From Acidimicrobiales bacterium (lineage in GTDB: Bacteria > Actinomycetota > Acidimicrobiia > Acidimicrobiales > SZUA-35): a stretch of DNA of 64,000 nucleotides. Within the stretch, counting starts at the first letter, position 1. The number at the start of each line of letters is the position of its first letter. Position numbers and translations under genes: made by a program. A model generated the notes under the pieces. It worked only from the letters and a program-made list of their open reading frames with translations, was not told the DNA's origin and made no database searches. Shown here piece by piece: positions 15,686-63,189 of this stretch. The stretch lies in the NCBI GenBank assembly GCA_020630195.1, contig JAHDBV010000014.1, positions 1-64,000 of the forward strand, written 5' to 3'.

Positions 15686-15761
15686 TGGCTCGCCCGGGAG
15701 GACTCGAACCTCCAACGGCCGGATTCAAAGTCCGGTGTTCTGCCAATTGAACTACGGGCGA
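15686..15761 (-). tRNA. tRNA-Gln (anticodon TTG), CCA encoded
   Basis: Cloverleaf read by eye on the minus strand. The 7-bp acceptor stem is TCGCCCG/CGGGCGA (15755-15761 with 15690-15696), with D arm GTTCAATTGGCAGAAC, anticodon stem CCGGA/TCCGG around loop CTTTGAA (anticodon TTG), and T arm GGAGG/CCTCC around TTCGAGT. The discriminator G is followed by an encoded CCA (15686-15688). It reads CAA/CAG codons. Confidence 0.96.
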
Positions 15762-32322: not shown

Positions 32323-33152
32323 GAGCCGGTGGCCAATCGGTAGACACGCTTGCGGGGCAGCCCGGTCTCGGCGGCGACGTGGTCGATCGCATCGCGACGA
32401 CTGACCCCGGTGGCGAGCTCGGCCTCGAGGCGTTCGACGATCTCGTCGTCGTCCAGCTCGACCTCGGGTGCGGGCTCGGCACCATCGAGCACCACCACGA
32501 ACTCGCCGCGGGGCGGCTCGTCGGCCAGGTGGGCTCCGGCCTCGGCCAGCGTGCCCCGCCACCACGACTCGTAGAGCTTCGTGATCTCACGGGCGAAGGT
32601 GACCCGCCTCGTCCCACCACACACGCCGGCGAGATCCGCCACGGTGCGCTCGAGCCGATGGGGCGCCTCGTAGAGCACGACCGTCCGCTCCTCGGCCGCC
32701 ACCGAGGCGAGCCGTTCGGTGCGTTCCTTGCCCTTGCGGGGCAGGAACCCCTCGAAACACCAGCGGCGGGACGCGAACCCCGACCCGGCGAGCGCCGACA
32801 CCGCCGCCGTGGGGCCCGGCACGACCTCGATCGCCAACCCCGCAGCGGCGACCGCCGCAACGAGCAGCTGACCCGGGTCGGACACGGCCGGCATGCCCGC
32901 GTCCGACACGAGCACCACCGTCGAACCCCCGGCCACCAGACCGACGATCCGGTCCGCCTCGGCGTGTTCGGTGTGTTCGTTCACCACCCGCAGATCCCGC
33001 CGACCGATGCCCATCGCCTGGAGCAACCGCCCCGTGCGGCGGGTGTCCTCGCAACAGATCAGATCGGCCTCGGTGAGCGCGGCCCGGCCACGGGGACTCA
33101 GGTCGTCGAGATTGCCGATCGGCGTGCCGACGACGACGAGACGACCGGTCAT
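32319..33152 (-). CDS. rsmI: 16S rRNA (cytidine1402-2'-O)-methyltransferase
   Basis: 277-aa RsmI of the tetrapyrrole methylase fold, which uses SAM to methylate C1402 in the ribosomal decoding centre. It has VVVGTPIGNLDDLSPR (6-21), CCEDTRRTG and VSDAGMPAVSDPG. It is full length with the C-terminal RsmI-type HTH-like extension (GVSRRDAIDHVAAETGLPRK). ATG overlaps the DUF192 stop (33149-33152). Confidence 0.95.
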   Translation of the reverse strand: MTGRLVVVGTPIGNLDDLSPRGRAALTEADLICCEDTRRTGRLLQAMGIGRRDLRVVNEHTEHAEADRIVGLVAGGSTVVLVSDAGMPAVSDPGQLLVAAVAAAGLAIEVVPGPTAAVSALAGSGFASRRWCFEGFLPRKGKERTERLASVAAEERTVVLYEAPHRLERTVADLAGVCGGTRRVTFAREITKLYESWWRGTLAEAGAHLADEPPRGEFVVVLDGAEPAPEVELDDDEIVERLEAELATGVSRRDAIDHVAAETGLPRKRVYRLATGS

Positions 33153-55410: not shown

Positions 55411-56003
55411 GCCAACACACCGTGGGAGACGAGCGCCGAGCGTGCGGCGACGGGGCCGACGACACGCTCGGCGGCGAGCCCGGCCGAACGGGCGCCGTCG
55501 ACGTTGAGCTGGTTGTCATCGAGGAACAGCACCCGATCGGCGGGGACCCCGAGGCGGCGGACCACCTCGTCGAAGATCTCCCGATGCGGCTTCGCCAGTC
55601 CGAGCTCGAACGAGGGGAAGTGGCGATCGAATCCCGCCCCGATTCCCCACGGTTCGAACTGGGCCTCCCAGTGGATCGGGTTCGTGTTCGACAACGTGGC
55701 GGTCAGCACCGGCACCTCGGCCACGAGCTCGAGGGCACCCGGATAGAGCGCGGAGGGCCACGCCGCGAACTCGGCGAGCGCTTCGTTGGGCGTGAGTCCG
55801 AGATCGAACTCGGCGATGAACGCATCGAGGAACTCCTCGGTGGAGCTCGCACCCCGTTCGAAGTCGTGCCCCGCCCCGAGGTCGAGCCACCGGGGCCAGA
55901 ACGTCTCGGGGGTGAAGCCGTGTCGCTCCAGGAACGCGTCGAGCCCTCCCAGCTCGACGATCACCCCGCCGAGATCGAACAACACCACCTCGATGTCGCT
56001 CAC
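55407..56003 (-). CDS. HAD family hydrolase
   Basis: 198-aa HAD phosphatase with motif I DLGGVI (about 10-15), motif II LSNTN, motif III Lys in AKPHREIFDEV and motif IV FLDDNQLNVDGA. A small cap of subclass I lies between motifs I and II. GTG overlaps the MmcQ stop by four bases. Confidence 0.9.
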   Translation of the reverse strand: MSDIEVVLFDLGGVIVELGGLDAFLERHGFTPETFWPRWLDLGAGHDFERGASSTEEFLDAFIAEFDLGLTPNEALAEFAAWPSALYPGALELVAEVPVLTATLSNTNPIHWEAQFEPWGIGAGFDRHFPSFELGLAKPHREIFDEVVRRLGVPADRVLFLDDNQLNVDGARSAGLAAERVVGPVAARSALVSHGVLA

Positions 56004-58875: not shown

Positions 58876-60117
58876 TCAGGCCAGTGCGTCGCGGATCTCG
58901 TCGGCCGACGCAGCGGAGGTGAGGAACTGCCGTCCCTTGATCGCGTGGCGGGGACGATTGACCGCGAGCAGGCCACAGGGTGCCCCGCCCTCGTCGAGGT
59001 AGAGCTGCGCGAACCTGCCCTCGGCCGGATCGCCGTGGATGATCTCGCGACCGCGCCCGGCGATGCCGGCGAACTGGATCTTCCAGTCGTACTGGTCCGA
59101 CCAGAACCACGGCACCGGATCGAACGGATCGATCGGCTCCCCGGCGAGGTCGGCCAGGATCCGACGCCCGGCGTAGCCACCCTGGTCGACACCGTTGTCC
59201 CACTGCTCCACCCGCATCGGGCGGCCGTAGCGGGGGTGGTCCCAGTTGGCCACGTCGCCCGCGACGACCACACCGGGCGCGGCGAGGCAGGTGGCGTCGG
59301 CTCGCACGCCGTTGTCGATCTCCAATCCGGATCCACCGAGCCACTCGGTGTTCGGGATCGCGCCGATGCCGACCACGACCGTGCGGGCTTCGACGGTCGA
59401 GCCGTCGGCGAGCCGGACGCCACGGACGTGTTGGTGGTCGCCGTGGTCGTCGATCTCGAACCCGTCGACACCGACCCCGAGGCGCACCTCGACACCTTCG
59501 ACTCGATGTCGCTCGGCGATCATCATGCCGGCCTCCGCGTCGAGCACGCGGGTGAGCGGCGCCTCGGCCGCTTCGATCATCGTGACGTCGTGCCCGGCCG
59601 ACCGGAACGTCGCCGCCACCTCGCCACCGATGAATCCCGCACCGATCACGGCGATCGGGCCGCCTCGGTCGGCCACCGCCGCACGGAGCCGGTCGGCGTC
59701 GGCCTTCGACCGCACGACGTGCACGTCGCTCAGACCGTCGGTGTCGGGAAGACGACGGGCGCGAGCGCCCGTCGCGATGACGAGGCCGTCGAAGCCGACC
59801 TCGTCGGGACCGTCGTCCATCGACAGGGTCCGCACGGTGCGGGCCTCGAGATCGAGCCCGACCGCGTCGGTCCCGAGACGCCATTCGACCCCGAGGGCGT
59901 CGGGATCCTTCGAGGGCCGCAGGAGCAGCTTCTCGGCGTCCCAGTCACCACCGAGATACTGCTTCGACAGTGGCGGCCGGTCGTAGGGGTGGTCGGCCTC
60001 GTCCCCGATGAGGACGATCTCGGCATCGGCACCGCTGCGCCGGATGGCCTGGGCGGCGTGCACCCCGGCCAGGGACGCGCCGACGATGACGATCCGCGGC
60101 GCCCCGTTGTCGGACAC
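58876..60117 (-). CDS. ferredoxin reductase-like FAD/NAD(P) oxidoreductase
   Basis: 413-aa flavoprotein with two dinucleotide folds (VIVGASLAGVHAAQAIRRSG; VIGAGFIGGEVAAT) and a C-terminal reductase domain. It resembles the NADH-dependent reductases that feed ferredoxins of cytochrome P450 or Rieske oxygenases. GTG start two bases after the ferredoxin stop. Confidence 0.92.
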   Translation of the reverse strand: MSDNGAPRIVIVGASLAGVHAAQAIRRSGADAEIVLIGDEADHPYDRPPLSKQYLGGDWDAEKLLLRPSKDPDALGVEWRLGTDAVGLDLEARTVRTLSMDDGPDEVGFDGLVIATGARARRLPDTDGLSDVHVVRSKADADRLRAAVADRGGPIAVIGAGFIGGEVAATFRSAGHDVTMIEAAEAPLTRVLDAEAGMMIAERHRVEGVEVRLGVGVDGFEIDDHGDHQHVRGVRLADGSTVEARTVVVGIGAIPNTEWLGGSGLEIDNGVRADATCLAAPGVVVAGDVANWDHPRYGRPMRVEQWDNGVDQGGYAGRRILADLAGEPIDPFDPVPWFWSDQYDWKIQFAGIAGRGREIIHGDPAEGRFAQLYLDEGGAPCGLLAVNRPRHAIKGRQFLTSAASADEIRDALA

Positions 60118-60119
60118 GG

Positions 60120-60311
60120 TCAGCCCTCGAGCGTGATGGCCTGCTTGGGGCACCGATCGGCGGCGTCACGCACCTTGTCGTGCAGACCCTCCGCCGGGTT
60201 CTCGTCGAGGACGTACAGGAAGTCGTCGTCCCGCACCTCGAACACCTCGGGGGCGATCTCCATGCACACGGCGTTGGATTCACACAGATCGAAATCGACG
60301 ACGACCTTCAT
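60120..60311 (-). CDS. 3Fe-4S-type ferredoxin
   Basis: 63-aa ferredoxin with three Cys, C10-x5-C16 and C54P, the pattern of a [3Fe-4S] ferredoxin in which the middle Cys is missing. GAGGAG is six bases before the ATG. It forms a two-gene unit with the reductase; no P450 or oxygenase gene is in the window. Confidence 0.92.
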   Translation of the reverse strand: MKVVVDFDLCESNAVCMEIAPEVFEVRDDDFLYVLDENPAEGLHDKVRDAADRCPKQAITLEG

Positions 60312-60323
60312 GGTCAGCTCCTC

Positions 60324-60353
60324 ACATCGGGGGTTCGAACGCAGGCCCGATGT
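60324..60353. promoter_or_regulatory. inverted repeat upstream of ferredoxin operon
   Basis: ACATCGGG-N14-CCCGATGT lies immediately upstream of the ferredoxin ribosome binding site, in the 122-bp gap before the SDR gene. Perfect 8-bp arms suit a TetR-like operator or a leader hairpin. The rest of the gap shows no other signal I can support. Confidence 0.45.
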
Positions 60354-60433
60354 TGCCATGAGCATGCCGCACTCCGCTGCCGACTCCCGAATCGCCGACG
60401 TCGGGACACCCCACCCGCGATGACCGACCGATG

Positions 60434-61189
60434 TCAGTAGCGGGTGTAGCCGCCGTCGATCACGATCTCGTCGCCGGTGTGCCAGGGGTTGGACGGGTCG
60501 CAGAGCCACGCACCGGCGGCGGCGAAGTCGGCCGGCACACCCCAGCGGCGTACGGGGGTCCGCTTCGTCGTCGCGTCGAGGAACTTGTCGTACTGGCGGG
60601 CACCTTCGGTCATCTCGGTCTCGACCCACCCGGGGATGATCGAGTTGGCCCGGATGCCGTAGCGGGCGAACTCGACGGCCAACCCACGCATCATCGCGAG
60701 CATGCCCGCCTTGGAGTGGGCGTAGGGCTGCGCCCCGGGTGCCCCGTGGATCGCGGAGGTGGACGACGTGCCGACGAGCGCACCACCCTCACCCCGTTCG
60801 ACCATGTGGCGGGCGGCCGCCCGCAGCGTCAGGAACGCGCCATCGGTGTTGATCGCCTGGACCCGGCGCCACGTCTCGAGGGTCTGTTCGAGGAAGGGGG
60901 CGCCCCCGGACACACCGGCGTTGGCCACCGCCGCGTCGACCTTGCCGAGCTCGTCGAGGATCGCGGCGAAACTCGTCTCCACCTGCTCCTCGTCCGACAC
61001 GTCGACCCGTTGGGCCATCACCCGATGGCCATGGGCCCGGAGCCGTTCGGACGCGGCCGCCAGCTTCGTGTCGTTCGTCCCCCAGATCGCCACATCGGCA
61101 CCGGCCGCTGCACAGCCCTCGGCGATGCCGAGGCCGATGCCGCCGTTGCCACCCGTCACGAGCACCACACGTCCACTGAGATCGGTCAT
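60434..61189 (-). CDS. SDR family oxidoreductase
   Basis: 251-aa classical SDR: TGGNGGIG, NAGVS, Ser in GTSSTSAI, Tyr-x3-Lys in YAHSKAGML, and the closing IVIDGGYTRY. FabG/gluconate dehydrogenase-like. The ATG follows CAGCAT by six bases. Confidence 0.9.
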   Translation of the reverse strand: MTDLSGRVVLVTGGNGGIGLGIAEGCAAAGADVAIWGTNDTKLAAASERLRAHGHRVMAQRVDVSDEEQVETSFAAILDELGKVDAAVANAGVSGGAPFLEQTLETWRRVQAINTDGAFLTLRAAARHMVERGEGGALVGTSSTSAIHGAPGAQPYAHSKAGMLAMMRGLAVEFARYGIRANSIIPGWVETEMTEGARQYDKFLDATTKRTPVRRWGVPADFAAAGAWLCDPSNPWHTGDEIVIDGGYTRY

Positions 61190-61270
61190 GGCCCGATGCT
61201 GGTGCGCGACACCGGCGGGCGCCAACCGGCGCCCGCCGGTGACGGGGGTGTTGGGAGATCGAGGGGTGGG

Positions 61271-61933
61271 TCAGAGCTCGGCGCGGGCGAGCTCCACCAC
61301 CTCGTCGGCGTCGAAGAAACCGGACCAGCCGGCGATCGGGTTGCCGTTGCGATCGACGAGGATCGCCGTGGGCTGGCCCCGGACGCCGTAGTAGGCCCAG
61401 GTCTCGAAGCTCTCGTCCCAGATCATCGGGAACGAGGCGACACCGGTCCGATCGACGAAGCCCTGGGCCTGGCCGAAGTCGTCCTGAGCCCCCATGCCGA
61501 CGACGGTGACCACATCTGCGTTGTCTCGAGCGAACTGCTCGACCTCGGGCGCTTCGGCCCGACAGGTGGGTCAATGCGGGGCGAAGAACCAGAGGAGCAC
61601 GGCCTTGTCGCCACCGGCGAGGGCCTCTCCGAGGTTCACCTCGGCGCCGTTGTAGATGTCGAGGACGTCCACGTCGGGGAAGAGGTGTGGCTCGGGTGCG
61701 GCGCCCTCGGTCGTGGTCGAGTCGGCCTCGGTGGTGCCGGCGGCGGCCTCGGTCGACTCGGTGGAGGTGGCGTCGGCCTCGGTGGTCTCGGCGGCGGCGG
61801 TGGTGGCGGTCGTTCCGAGCGTCGCGCCGGTGGCGGCGCGCTCCTCGGGGTCGACGCCACCGCCACATGCGGCGAGCGCGAGGCTCGAGGCCAGCAGGAG
61901 CGCGGCGGTGCGCGCAGGCGTGCGGGGGTGCAT
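61271..61933 (-). CDS. secreted thiol oxidoreductase (MPT53/DsbE-like), probable selenoprotein
   Basis: 220 codons including an in-frame TGA at codon 121 (61571-61573). The protein is a lipoprotein (lipobox LALAAC, Cys23) with a Thr/Ala/Glu-rich linker (about 38-80) and a thioredoxin-fold domain. The active-site region reads LLWFFAPH-TGA-PTCRAEAPEV, where mycobacterial MPT53/DsbE/DsbF have APWCPxC. The frame stays open through the rest of the fold (VGMGAQDDFGQAQGFVD, WAYYGVRGQPTAILVD with the cis-Pro) to the stop at 61271. A hairpin directly 3' of TGA is SECIS-like. Reading TGA as selenocysteine gives a UxxC enzyme. An in-frame TTG at 61945 is an alternative start. A disabled CxxC gene is the competing explanation. 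Confidence 0.82.
61542..61567 (-). promoter_or_regulatory. SECIS-like hairpin following in-frame TGA
   Basis: On the mRNA, three bases after UGA, the sequence folds as ACCU-(GU bulge)-CGGGC-loop CGAAGC-GCCCG-AGGU: a 4-bp lower stem, a 5' bulge containing U, a 5-bp upper stem and a 6-nt apical loop with G second. Bulged U and loop G are recognised features of bacterial SECIS elements. The loop starts 15 nt after UGA, near the short end of the usual distance as I recall it. Confidence 0.65.
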
Positions 61934-62019
61934 GACCTCACTCAACCGGTGAGGTCGGGGCCCGATTCCGCGGACGGCCGAAGATTTCTCCGACGTTCAG
62001 CTCCCGCTCGGGGGAACGG

Positions 62020-63189
62020 TCAGGGCAGGTACGGCACCGGGTCGATCGCCGTGCCGTTCGACCGGATCTCGAAGTGCAGGTGCGGTCCGGTGGAGTTGCC
62101 CGTGGAGCCGACGTAGCCGATGACGTCGCCCCGGTTCACCCGGTCGCCGGCGGACACACCGAGCTGCGACTGGTGGGCGTAGAGCGTGGTGATCCCGCTG
62201 CCGTGGTCGATCACGACGGTGTTGCCGTAGCCGTTCTGCCAGCCCGACGAGATCACGGTGCCGCCCTTCGCCGCGGCGATCGGCGTCCCGGTGCTCGCAC
62301 CCTGGTCGATGCCCTTGTGGAGGCGACGGGTGCCGAAGATCGGGTGGACCCGGTAGCCGAAGCCCGAGCTGATCGGTGCGTTGATCGGCCACTGGAACCC
62401 GGAGACCGATGCTTCACCCGGCTGCGGGGCGGCGCCGCCGGGCCGCGGTGCGGGCGTGGCGAGCCGGTTGATGAGTTCGGTCAGCTCCGCGTCCTCGGCG
62501 TCGAGCTCGGCGACGAGGCCTTCCCACTCCGACACGCGGGCGGCCATCTCGGCGCGAAGTTCGGCCTGGAGTGTCTGGATCTCGGCCAGCTCGGCGACGG
62601 CGACGGCCCGCTCGGCCTCGAGCGCCTGGGCATCGGCCGCCGCAGCGGCCGCTTCGGCCCGCAACGCCTCGGCGTCGCCCCGCAACACCCGGATCTCCTC
62701 GAGCACGGCGACGGCGTTGCCGCCGACGCTCTCGAGCAGCGCCTGCTGGCGAAGCGAGGCCGAGAAGTCGCCATCGAGCAACGGAGACGAGCCCTGATCG
62801 CTCGAGGTGACGAAGCCCCGGATGGCGAGATCGGCGAGGCGGGTCTCGAGGATGTCGGCATCGGCGTCGAGCTCGGCGATCGCGACCTCGGCGTCGAGCT
62901 GCCGGGCGGCGGCTTCGTCGATCCCCCGCTGGATCGACGCCATCTCCTCTTCCTGCGCCGTCACGGCGACGGTGATGGCGTTGAGTGCGGAGAGGACCTC
63001 GGCGTCCTCGGCCCGAGCCGCGTCGAGTTCGGCGGCGGCGTCGGCCCGTTCGGCCCGGATCCGTTCGCGCTCGGCGCGTGCTTCGGATTCCGACGACTGG
63101 GCGCCGGCGGCGAAGGGCCCGACGACGAGGAGTCCGAGCAGCACGGACCAGAGTGCGGCCCCGAGGCCGACACGAAGCAGTCGATGCAT
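62020..63189 (-). CDS. M23 family metallopeptidase with coiled coil
   Basis: 389-aa exported protein: signal peptide (about 1-30, ending FAAGAQS), long EnvC-like coiled coil (about 32-240), Pro/Ala linker and LytM/M23 domain with HKGIDQG and HLHFE zinc motifs. It probably cleaves or regulates cleavage of peptidoglycan cross-links during division. GGAGG is seven bases before the ATG. Confidence 0.93.
   Translation of the reverse strand: MHRLLRVGLGAALWSVLLGLLVVGPFAAGAQSSESEARAERERIRAERADAAAELDAARAEDAEVLSALNAITVAVTAQEEEMASIQRGIDEAAARQLDAEVAIAELDADADILETRLADLAIRGFVTSSDQGSSPLLDGDFSASLRQQALLESVGGNAVAVLEEIRVLRGDAEALRAEAAAAAADAQALEAERAVAVAELAEIQTLQAELRAEMAARVSEWEGLVAELDAEDAELTELINRLATPAPRPGGAAPQPGEASVSGFQWPINAPISSGFGYRVHPIFGTRRLHKGIDQGASTGTPIAAAKGGTVISSGWQNGYGNTVVIDHGSGITTLYAHQSQLGVSAGDRVNRGDVIGYVGSTGNSTGPHLHFEIRSNGTAIDPVPYLP

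Follow-up and report, generated by a model that had tools for sequence, protein, structure and literature searches.

A putative selenocysteine codon in a thioredoxin-like lipoprotein gene of an Acidimicrobiales bacterium and a candidate two-hairpin SECIS downstream of it

Analysis of a 64,000-nucleotide stretch of an Acidimicrobiales genome (assembly GCA_020630195.1, contig JAHDBV010000014.1, positions 1 to 64,000; termed the window) indicated that an in-frame UGA in a minus-strand redox gene is almost certainly read as selenocysteine (Sec), with a short hairpin, H2, as the core of its SECIS. Another hairpin, H1, lies between the UGA and H2. We lean modestly towards a reading in which a large clade of the Acidimicrobiales uses a tandem two-hairpin SECIS, where a variable H1 would compact a spacer of 32 to 34 nt or pace the ribosome and H2, with its invariant xGU loop, would bind SelB. 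This layout would occur in the redoxin genes and in the unrelated selD and be missing where the spacer is 26 nt, and in the redoxin the core would impose a fixed EQFA peptide.

The UGA-containing gene, its product and its relatives

The features of the gene and of its two hairpins are listed in the table. Pfam searches of the gene product detected Redoxin (PF08534, 4.4e-12) and AhpC-TSA (PF00578, 1.1e-11), and in an NCBIfam search no model scored above its own cut-off. An AlphaFold model of the thioredoxin-like domain protein had a pLDDT of 96.5, and in it the first long helix (residues 41 to 56) opens at the redox motif, directly after U40. The closest structure in the PDB was M. tuberculosis DsbF (3ios; TM 0.81, 34% identity, E of 6.0e-14), and M. 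tuberculosis DsbE/MPT53 (1lu4) and Bacillus ResA (1st9) were further structural matches, with which the sequence search concurred. The fold is common to these proteins and the window protein, and the Pfam matches, the model and the structure comparison together identified it as a ResA/TlpA/DsbE-like thioredoxin fold. The attacking position is a Cys in the DsbF, DsbE/MPT53 and ResA family, whereas Sec is predicted there in the window protein. The product is very probably a secreted, membrane-anchored thioredoxin lipoprotein of the ResA/TlpA/DsbE-like kind, with UGA as a Sec codon.

Features of the redox gene and its downstream hairpins (window positions)
Feature	Position	Strand	Remarks
Predicted Sec redox gene	61271..61933	minus	ResA/TlpA/DsbE-like thioredoxin domain, preceded by a signal peptide with lipobox (LALAAC) and a T/E-rich linker
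Likely start codon, ATG	61933-61931	minus	Alternative TTG at 61945, upstream, also open
In-frame UGA, residue 121 counted from the ATG, first of U-P-T-C	61573-61571	minus	In Cys relatives, the first Cys of CxxC occupies this site
Resolving Cys codon (UGU) of UxxC	61562..61564	minus	Invariant in the alignment
H1, ACC-UG-UCGGGC-[CGAAGC]-GCCCGA-GGU	61542..61567	minus	Starts 3 nt after the UGA at 61573-61571
H2, UCGAGC-AGUUC-GCUCGA	61526..61542	minus	6 bp, 5-nt loop with GU; encodes (V)EQFAR
Apical loop of H2, AGUUC	61532..61536	minus	G and U invariant in 118/118 UGA relatives of type A
Terminal UGA, the normal stop of the gene	61271..61273	minus	No SECIS-like H2 after it

The gene was flanked on the minus strand by genes for a short-chain dehydrogenase, a ferredoxin and a pyridine nucleotide-disulphide reductase (58876-61225) and, on its other side, by an M23 peptidase gene (62020-63189). 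A strong G+C-rich hairpin just past the terminal UGA (~61236-61213, -24.4 kcal/mol) is perhaps a terminator. The sole RNA gene found within the window was a tRNA-Gln(ttg) at 15686-15761.

Proteins of this kind are already known, because Redoxin (PF08534) with UxxC and Prx-like thiol:disulfide oxidoreductase (PF00578) with UxxC/UxxU are both entered in the catalogue in Table 1 of PMC13188914. The window protein belongs to the same Pfam families and has the same UxxC, and its double-Sec paralogues match UxxU; the likeness is one of family and motif. In the open-access literature searched, coverage of which was partial, no paper was found that placed Redoxin or Prx-like selenoproteins in the Acidimicrobiales, and none on selenoproteins of Acidimicrobiia, Acidimicrobiales or Ilumatobacter.

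A relative of the window protein was present in all 39 genomes of its family, mostly with one TGA. The same in-frame TGA recurred at the same site across relatives from many genomes, with the downstream frame intact, and the site aligned with it in relatives was a Cys. Named relatives came from two Acidimicrobiales MAGs and one uncultured Ilumatobacter. The family set comprised 104 TGA loci, including one (L053) from a separate search; L051 and L052 were excluded as duplicates of L022 and L026, and at least two further TGA rows among the matches listed (G008:C244 and G038:C140) were not included. These loci split into type A, in which EQFA follows the redox motif (53 loci, counting L032, which has a GGUUC loop and was moved by hand from type B), and type B, paralogues with PAVAEV (51 loci). 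Among the type-B loci, 13 had U-x-x-U; they come from 12 genomes and include one locus of the window's own genome. The family Cys set consisted of 26 of the 27 no-TGA rows retrieved from the matches listed, L133 being left out as it is without CxxC. Outside the family, the sample took in all 14 of the no-TGA relatives listed and 65 of the ~113 TGA relatives listed, these 65 coming from 18 other families. Pooling gave 118 UGA genes (53 + 65) and 40 Cys genes (26 + 14); counts over these sets are of related, not independent, sequences, and comparisons between them ignore kinship.

Conservation of H2 and the Sec-decoding machinery

H1 and H2 share one base, 61542, which is the last of H1 and the first of H2. 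The UGA-to-loop spacing of H2 was 34 nt, and the 17-nt hairpin alone had a folding energy of -8.0 kcal/mol. Among the 53 type-A sequences, 96.9% of 318 cells were paired, compared with 89.2% after shuffling (0/500 shuffles as high). Two-sided changes were present at four of the six pairs, with a covariation reached in 0/500 shuffles, and slid registers were only 25 to 43% paired. Relative to synonymous recodings, H2 was significantly stable (p<=0.05) in 47 of the 53 family UGA genes and, over the pooled sets, in 107/118 UGA genes versus 1/40 Cys genes; in 11 of the 118 UGA relatives, stability by itself was not significant in this test. The 65 out-of-sample UGA relatives retained all six pairs in 56 cases and five in the other 9, and an xGU loop was present in every one. 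Zero to three pairs were formed at this position in the 14 Cys orthologues outside the family, and H2 was judged absent from the pooled 40 Cys genes.

The bSECIS model specifies 16 to 37 nt between UGA and loop, an upper stem of 4 to 16 bp and an MFE of <= -7.5 kcal/mol (PMC13188914, Fig. 2A legend), and it places a G at loop position 1 or 2, in most cases with G or U after it (PMC13188914). H2 agreed with this consensus in its 5-nt loop, in its 6-bp stem, which showed compensation, in the GU at loop positions 2-3 (xGU), and in spacing and energy.

Codon usage over H2 was also biased. The Ala codon was GCT in 107 of the 118 UGA genes; in the background, GCT made up 316 of 2413 Ala codons. The third base of the Val codon preceding EQFA varied with the Arg or Gln codon that follows: GTC with CG- was seen 62 times, GTT with CA- 25 times and GTC with CA- once. 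In one relative (L034), an E-to-A change occurred together with A-to-V and H2 pairing was retained. EQFA was lost in Cys orthologues. Because of the pairing of H2, the synonymous bias and this loss, the conservation of EQFA appears to be imposed by RNA structure, which would make it a clean case of such a structure fixing an amino acid sequence. The original prediction that sequence and structure are both constrained here was borne out; it had named TCRAEAPEV as the constrained peptide, and the peptide apparently imposed by the RNA is EQFA, which follows it.

Components of a Sec-decoding pathway were found in the genome assembly, which is 82% complete and in 200 contigs. On one contig, selB (250 bits over the cut-off, with a match spanning only model positions 2-338 of 581) adjoined selA (392 bits). 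The selD gene (354 bits; G000:C185:34867-35790, L020 / L018) contained one in-frame UGA, in HGAGUACKL. With this UGA, a Sec-pathway enzyme would itself be a selenoprotein, made by the pathway to which it belongs. The tRNA-Sec gene, selC (L271, G000:C64:1-54), was present as its first 54 nt, truncated where contig C64 ends. This fragment, located by a DNA search with a gene from the same genus, contained TCA and was 100% identical to that gene, which ARAGORN called as tRNA-SeC(tca). A search of the genome with the Rfam tRNA-Sec model gave no match over the cut-off; of 11 sub-cut-off matches, the 8 made into loci proved to be tRNAs for Ser, Gly, Leu, Cys or Arg. Hence selA, selB, selD and selC were all found, the last as a contig-end fragment.

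A selA match was present in 36 of the family's 39 genomes (34 over the cut-off) and, by reading of the listing, a tRNA-Sec match of >=63 bits in 29. In genus g7 (three genomes), selA was matched in 0/3 and tRNA-Sec reached 63 bits in none, and the relatives of the redox gene among the matches listed were without TGA. Some genomes with a TGA gene were without a strong tRNA-Sec match, for example G015, which is 95% complete; assembly gaps, the sole explanation offered, may account for this.

From these sequence features we infer the following scheme. When the ribosome approaches the UGA, SelB loaded with GTP and Sec-tRNA-Sec would bind H2, whose 5-nt loop would display the invariant GU, and SelB would bring Sec to the A site. 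Sec, as the attacking residue of U-P-T-C, would then form a selenenylsulfide couple with the resolving Cys. H1 would probably shorten the 34-nt spacing between UGA and H2 and/or slow the ribosome.

The first hairpin and its dependence on spacer length

The original prediction was of a SECIS-like hairpin, H1, immediately after the UGA, with SelB recognition hallmarks; its stem was expected to be conserved in TGA-bearing orthologues. The hairpin was present as described (61567-61542) and folded alone at -12.2 kcal/mol; taken singly, it was not clearly above chance. The 56-nt fold containing H1 had a z of -1.42 relative to dinucleotide shuffles, and the stability of H1 in the window gene was not unusual among 600 synonymous recodings (p=0.16; 0.164 with own-genome codon usage). 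The placing of a SECIS within the coding sequence just downstream of the UGA proved sound, with the core assigned to the next hairpin, 61542-61526, rather than to H1. The H1 loop starts 14 nt after the UGA, outside the 16 to 37 nt of the bSECIS model, and the base after its position-2 G is an A where the model mostly has G or U. Nor was the stem conserved in this register, as 55.1% of cells at its nine pairs were standard in the 53 UGA relatives compared with 53.7% after shuffling (87/500 as high), and no covariation signal was detected in these sequences.

A different picture emerged when the register was left free. A hairpin between UGA and H2 was more stable than synonymous recodings (p<=0.05) in 48/118 UGA genes versus 4/40 Cys genes (Fisher 3.5e-4, ignoring kinship). 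By set, these were 15/53 UGA genes in the family and 33/65 in the order, and 2/26 and 2/14 Cys genes; another run of the test, in which the pooled codon usage differed slightly, yielded 17/53 UGA and 1/26 Cys genes in the family. The register was widely variable, with centre sums from 30 to 46.

Type B and selD genes differ from each other in spacer length. In type B, a GGUC loop lay 26 nt after the UGA in 51/51 loci, above a stem that was 80.4% paired with covariation reached in 0/500 shuffles and that gave a weaker result in the energy test (12/51). A free-register first hairpin more stable than synonymous recoding was detected in 0/51 of these loci. As an independent case, the selD sample consisted of 30 of the 31 TGA selD genes in the family (G034:C83 was left out). 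Its H2 had an xGU loop in 30/30, 32 nt after the UGA, with 99.4% of cells paired. The first hairpin of selD was 81.7% paired in a fixed register (0/500 shuffles as high), its covariation score was reached by 1/500 shuffles, and it passed the synonymous test in 12/30. A first hairpin was thus seen at spacers of 32 to 34 nt and not at 26 nt. Because of the moderate enrichment of stability in UGA genes and the same two-hairpin layout in selD, H1 is probably an accessory, register-variable first hairpin and not a SelB-type core.

Alternative readings and selenoprotein genes of the genome

An alternative of some standing, which we hold to be possible and somewhat doubtful, is that H2 alone is the SECIS and that the extra stability upstream of it, in the H1 stretch, stems from the G+C-rich peptide R-A-E-A-P and serves no function. 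The lack of fixed-register covariation in the 53 sequences, the unremarkable stability of H1 in the window gene and its wide range of registers are all consistent with this. The synonymous null, however, holds the peptide fixed, and yet UGA and Cys genes differed in free register, in a comparison that ignores kinship; furthermore, the first hairpin of selD covaries in a fixed register, and the type B paralogues with 26-nt spacing were without such stability. That H1 itself is the SelB-binding SECIS is very unlikely. It is stable, follows the UGA directly and has a G at loop position 2, but its spacing, the A after that G and its lack of conservation in register argue against this, as do the UGA paralogues without H1 and the location of the invariant xGU loop in H2.

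Readings without Sec fared worse. Annotation with table 11 would end the gene at 61571, as expected if the UGA were a genuine stop or had arisen by sequencing error or as a lesion in a pseudogene, leaving a truncated lipoprotein; this is extremely improbable given the same-site in-frame TGA in many genomes, the intact frame beyond it, the conserved H2 and the presence of selA, selB, selC and selD. Acidimicrobiales Sec oxidoreductase genes would be annotated as truncated. Genome-wide reassignment of UGA, for example to Trp or Gly, would explain the open frame and nothing else, and we regard it as scarcely credible: the redox gene itself ends in UGA, the aligned residue in relatives is Cys, and reading TGA as sense yields an absurd 5824-aa frame running through other genes. 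The gene ends seen here suggest that UGA is a stop in most genes of this genome.

Compared with the bSECIS consensus, the arrangement with H1 as an accessory has an extra, register-variable hairpin between the UGA and the core, a layout absent from the prokaryotic SECIS section of PMC13188914. A tandem-hairpin layout would be new, no report of one having been found in the literature searched. If true, it would permit a direct test of UGA-to-SelB-site spacing beyond the single-hairpin model and better SECIS search programs.

Covariance models R1 and R2 were searched against the genome. R1 matched the window gene at its H2 (3.1e-17). Further matches were to a U-x-x-U gene on contig C15 (2.7e-18), two genes on C78 (1.3e-12 and 1.8e-10) and one on C43 (R2, 3.1e-6; WFWAEWUAVC). 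Apart from the C43 gene, all of these sequences, that of the window gene included, had been used to train the models, so that their matches are built in. Weaker matches (R1 E >=0.03, R2 E >=0.005) were chance-like when their frames were read. Two other UGA-plus-H2 pattern matches in the window, both on the minus strand, were rejected: the UGA at 56002 resembles an ordinary gene end, and the frame at 32983 is broken by further stops.

At least six Sec genes, including selD, were counted in this incomplete genome. Genomes with six or more selenoprotein genes have been termed selenoprotein-rich and are mostly of Deltaproteobacteria, Clostridia and Synergistetes (PMC5029168). The predicted genes, among them that for a U-x-x-U double-Sec protein, enlarge the set of membrane-anchored Sec oxidoreductases in the Acidimicrobiales. 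The double-Sec gene (L109, G000:C15:20386-20721) and 12 other loci are TlpA-like paralogues with two in-frame TGA codons in U-P-[H/F/V]-U, and both active-site residues of these proteins would be Sec. The two genes on C78 (L118 and L090, G000:C78:40566-41431) are adjacent type-B Sec redoxin genes arranged in tandem.
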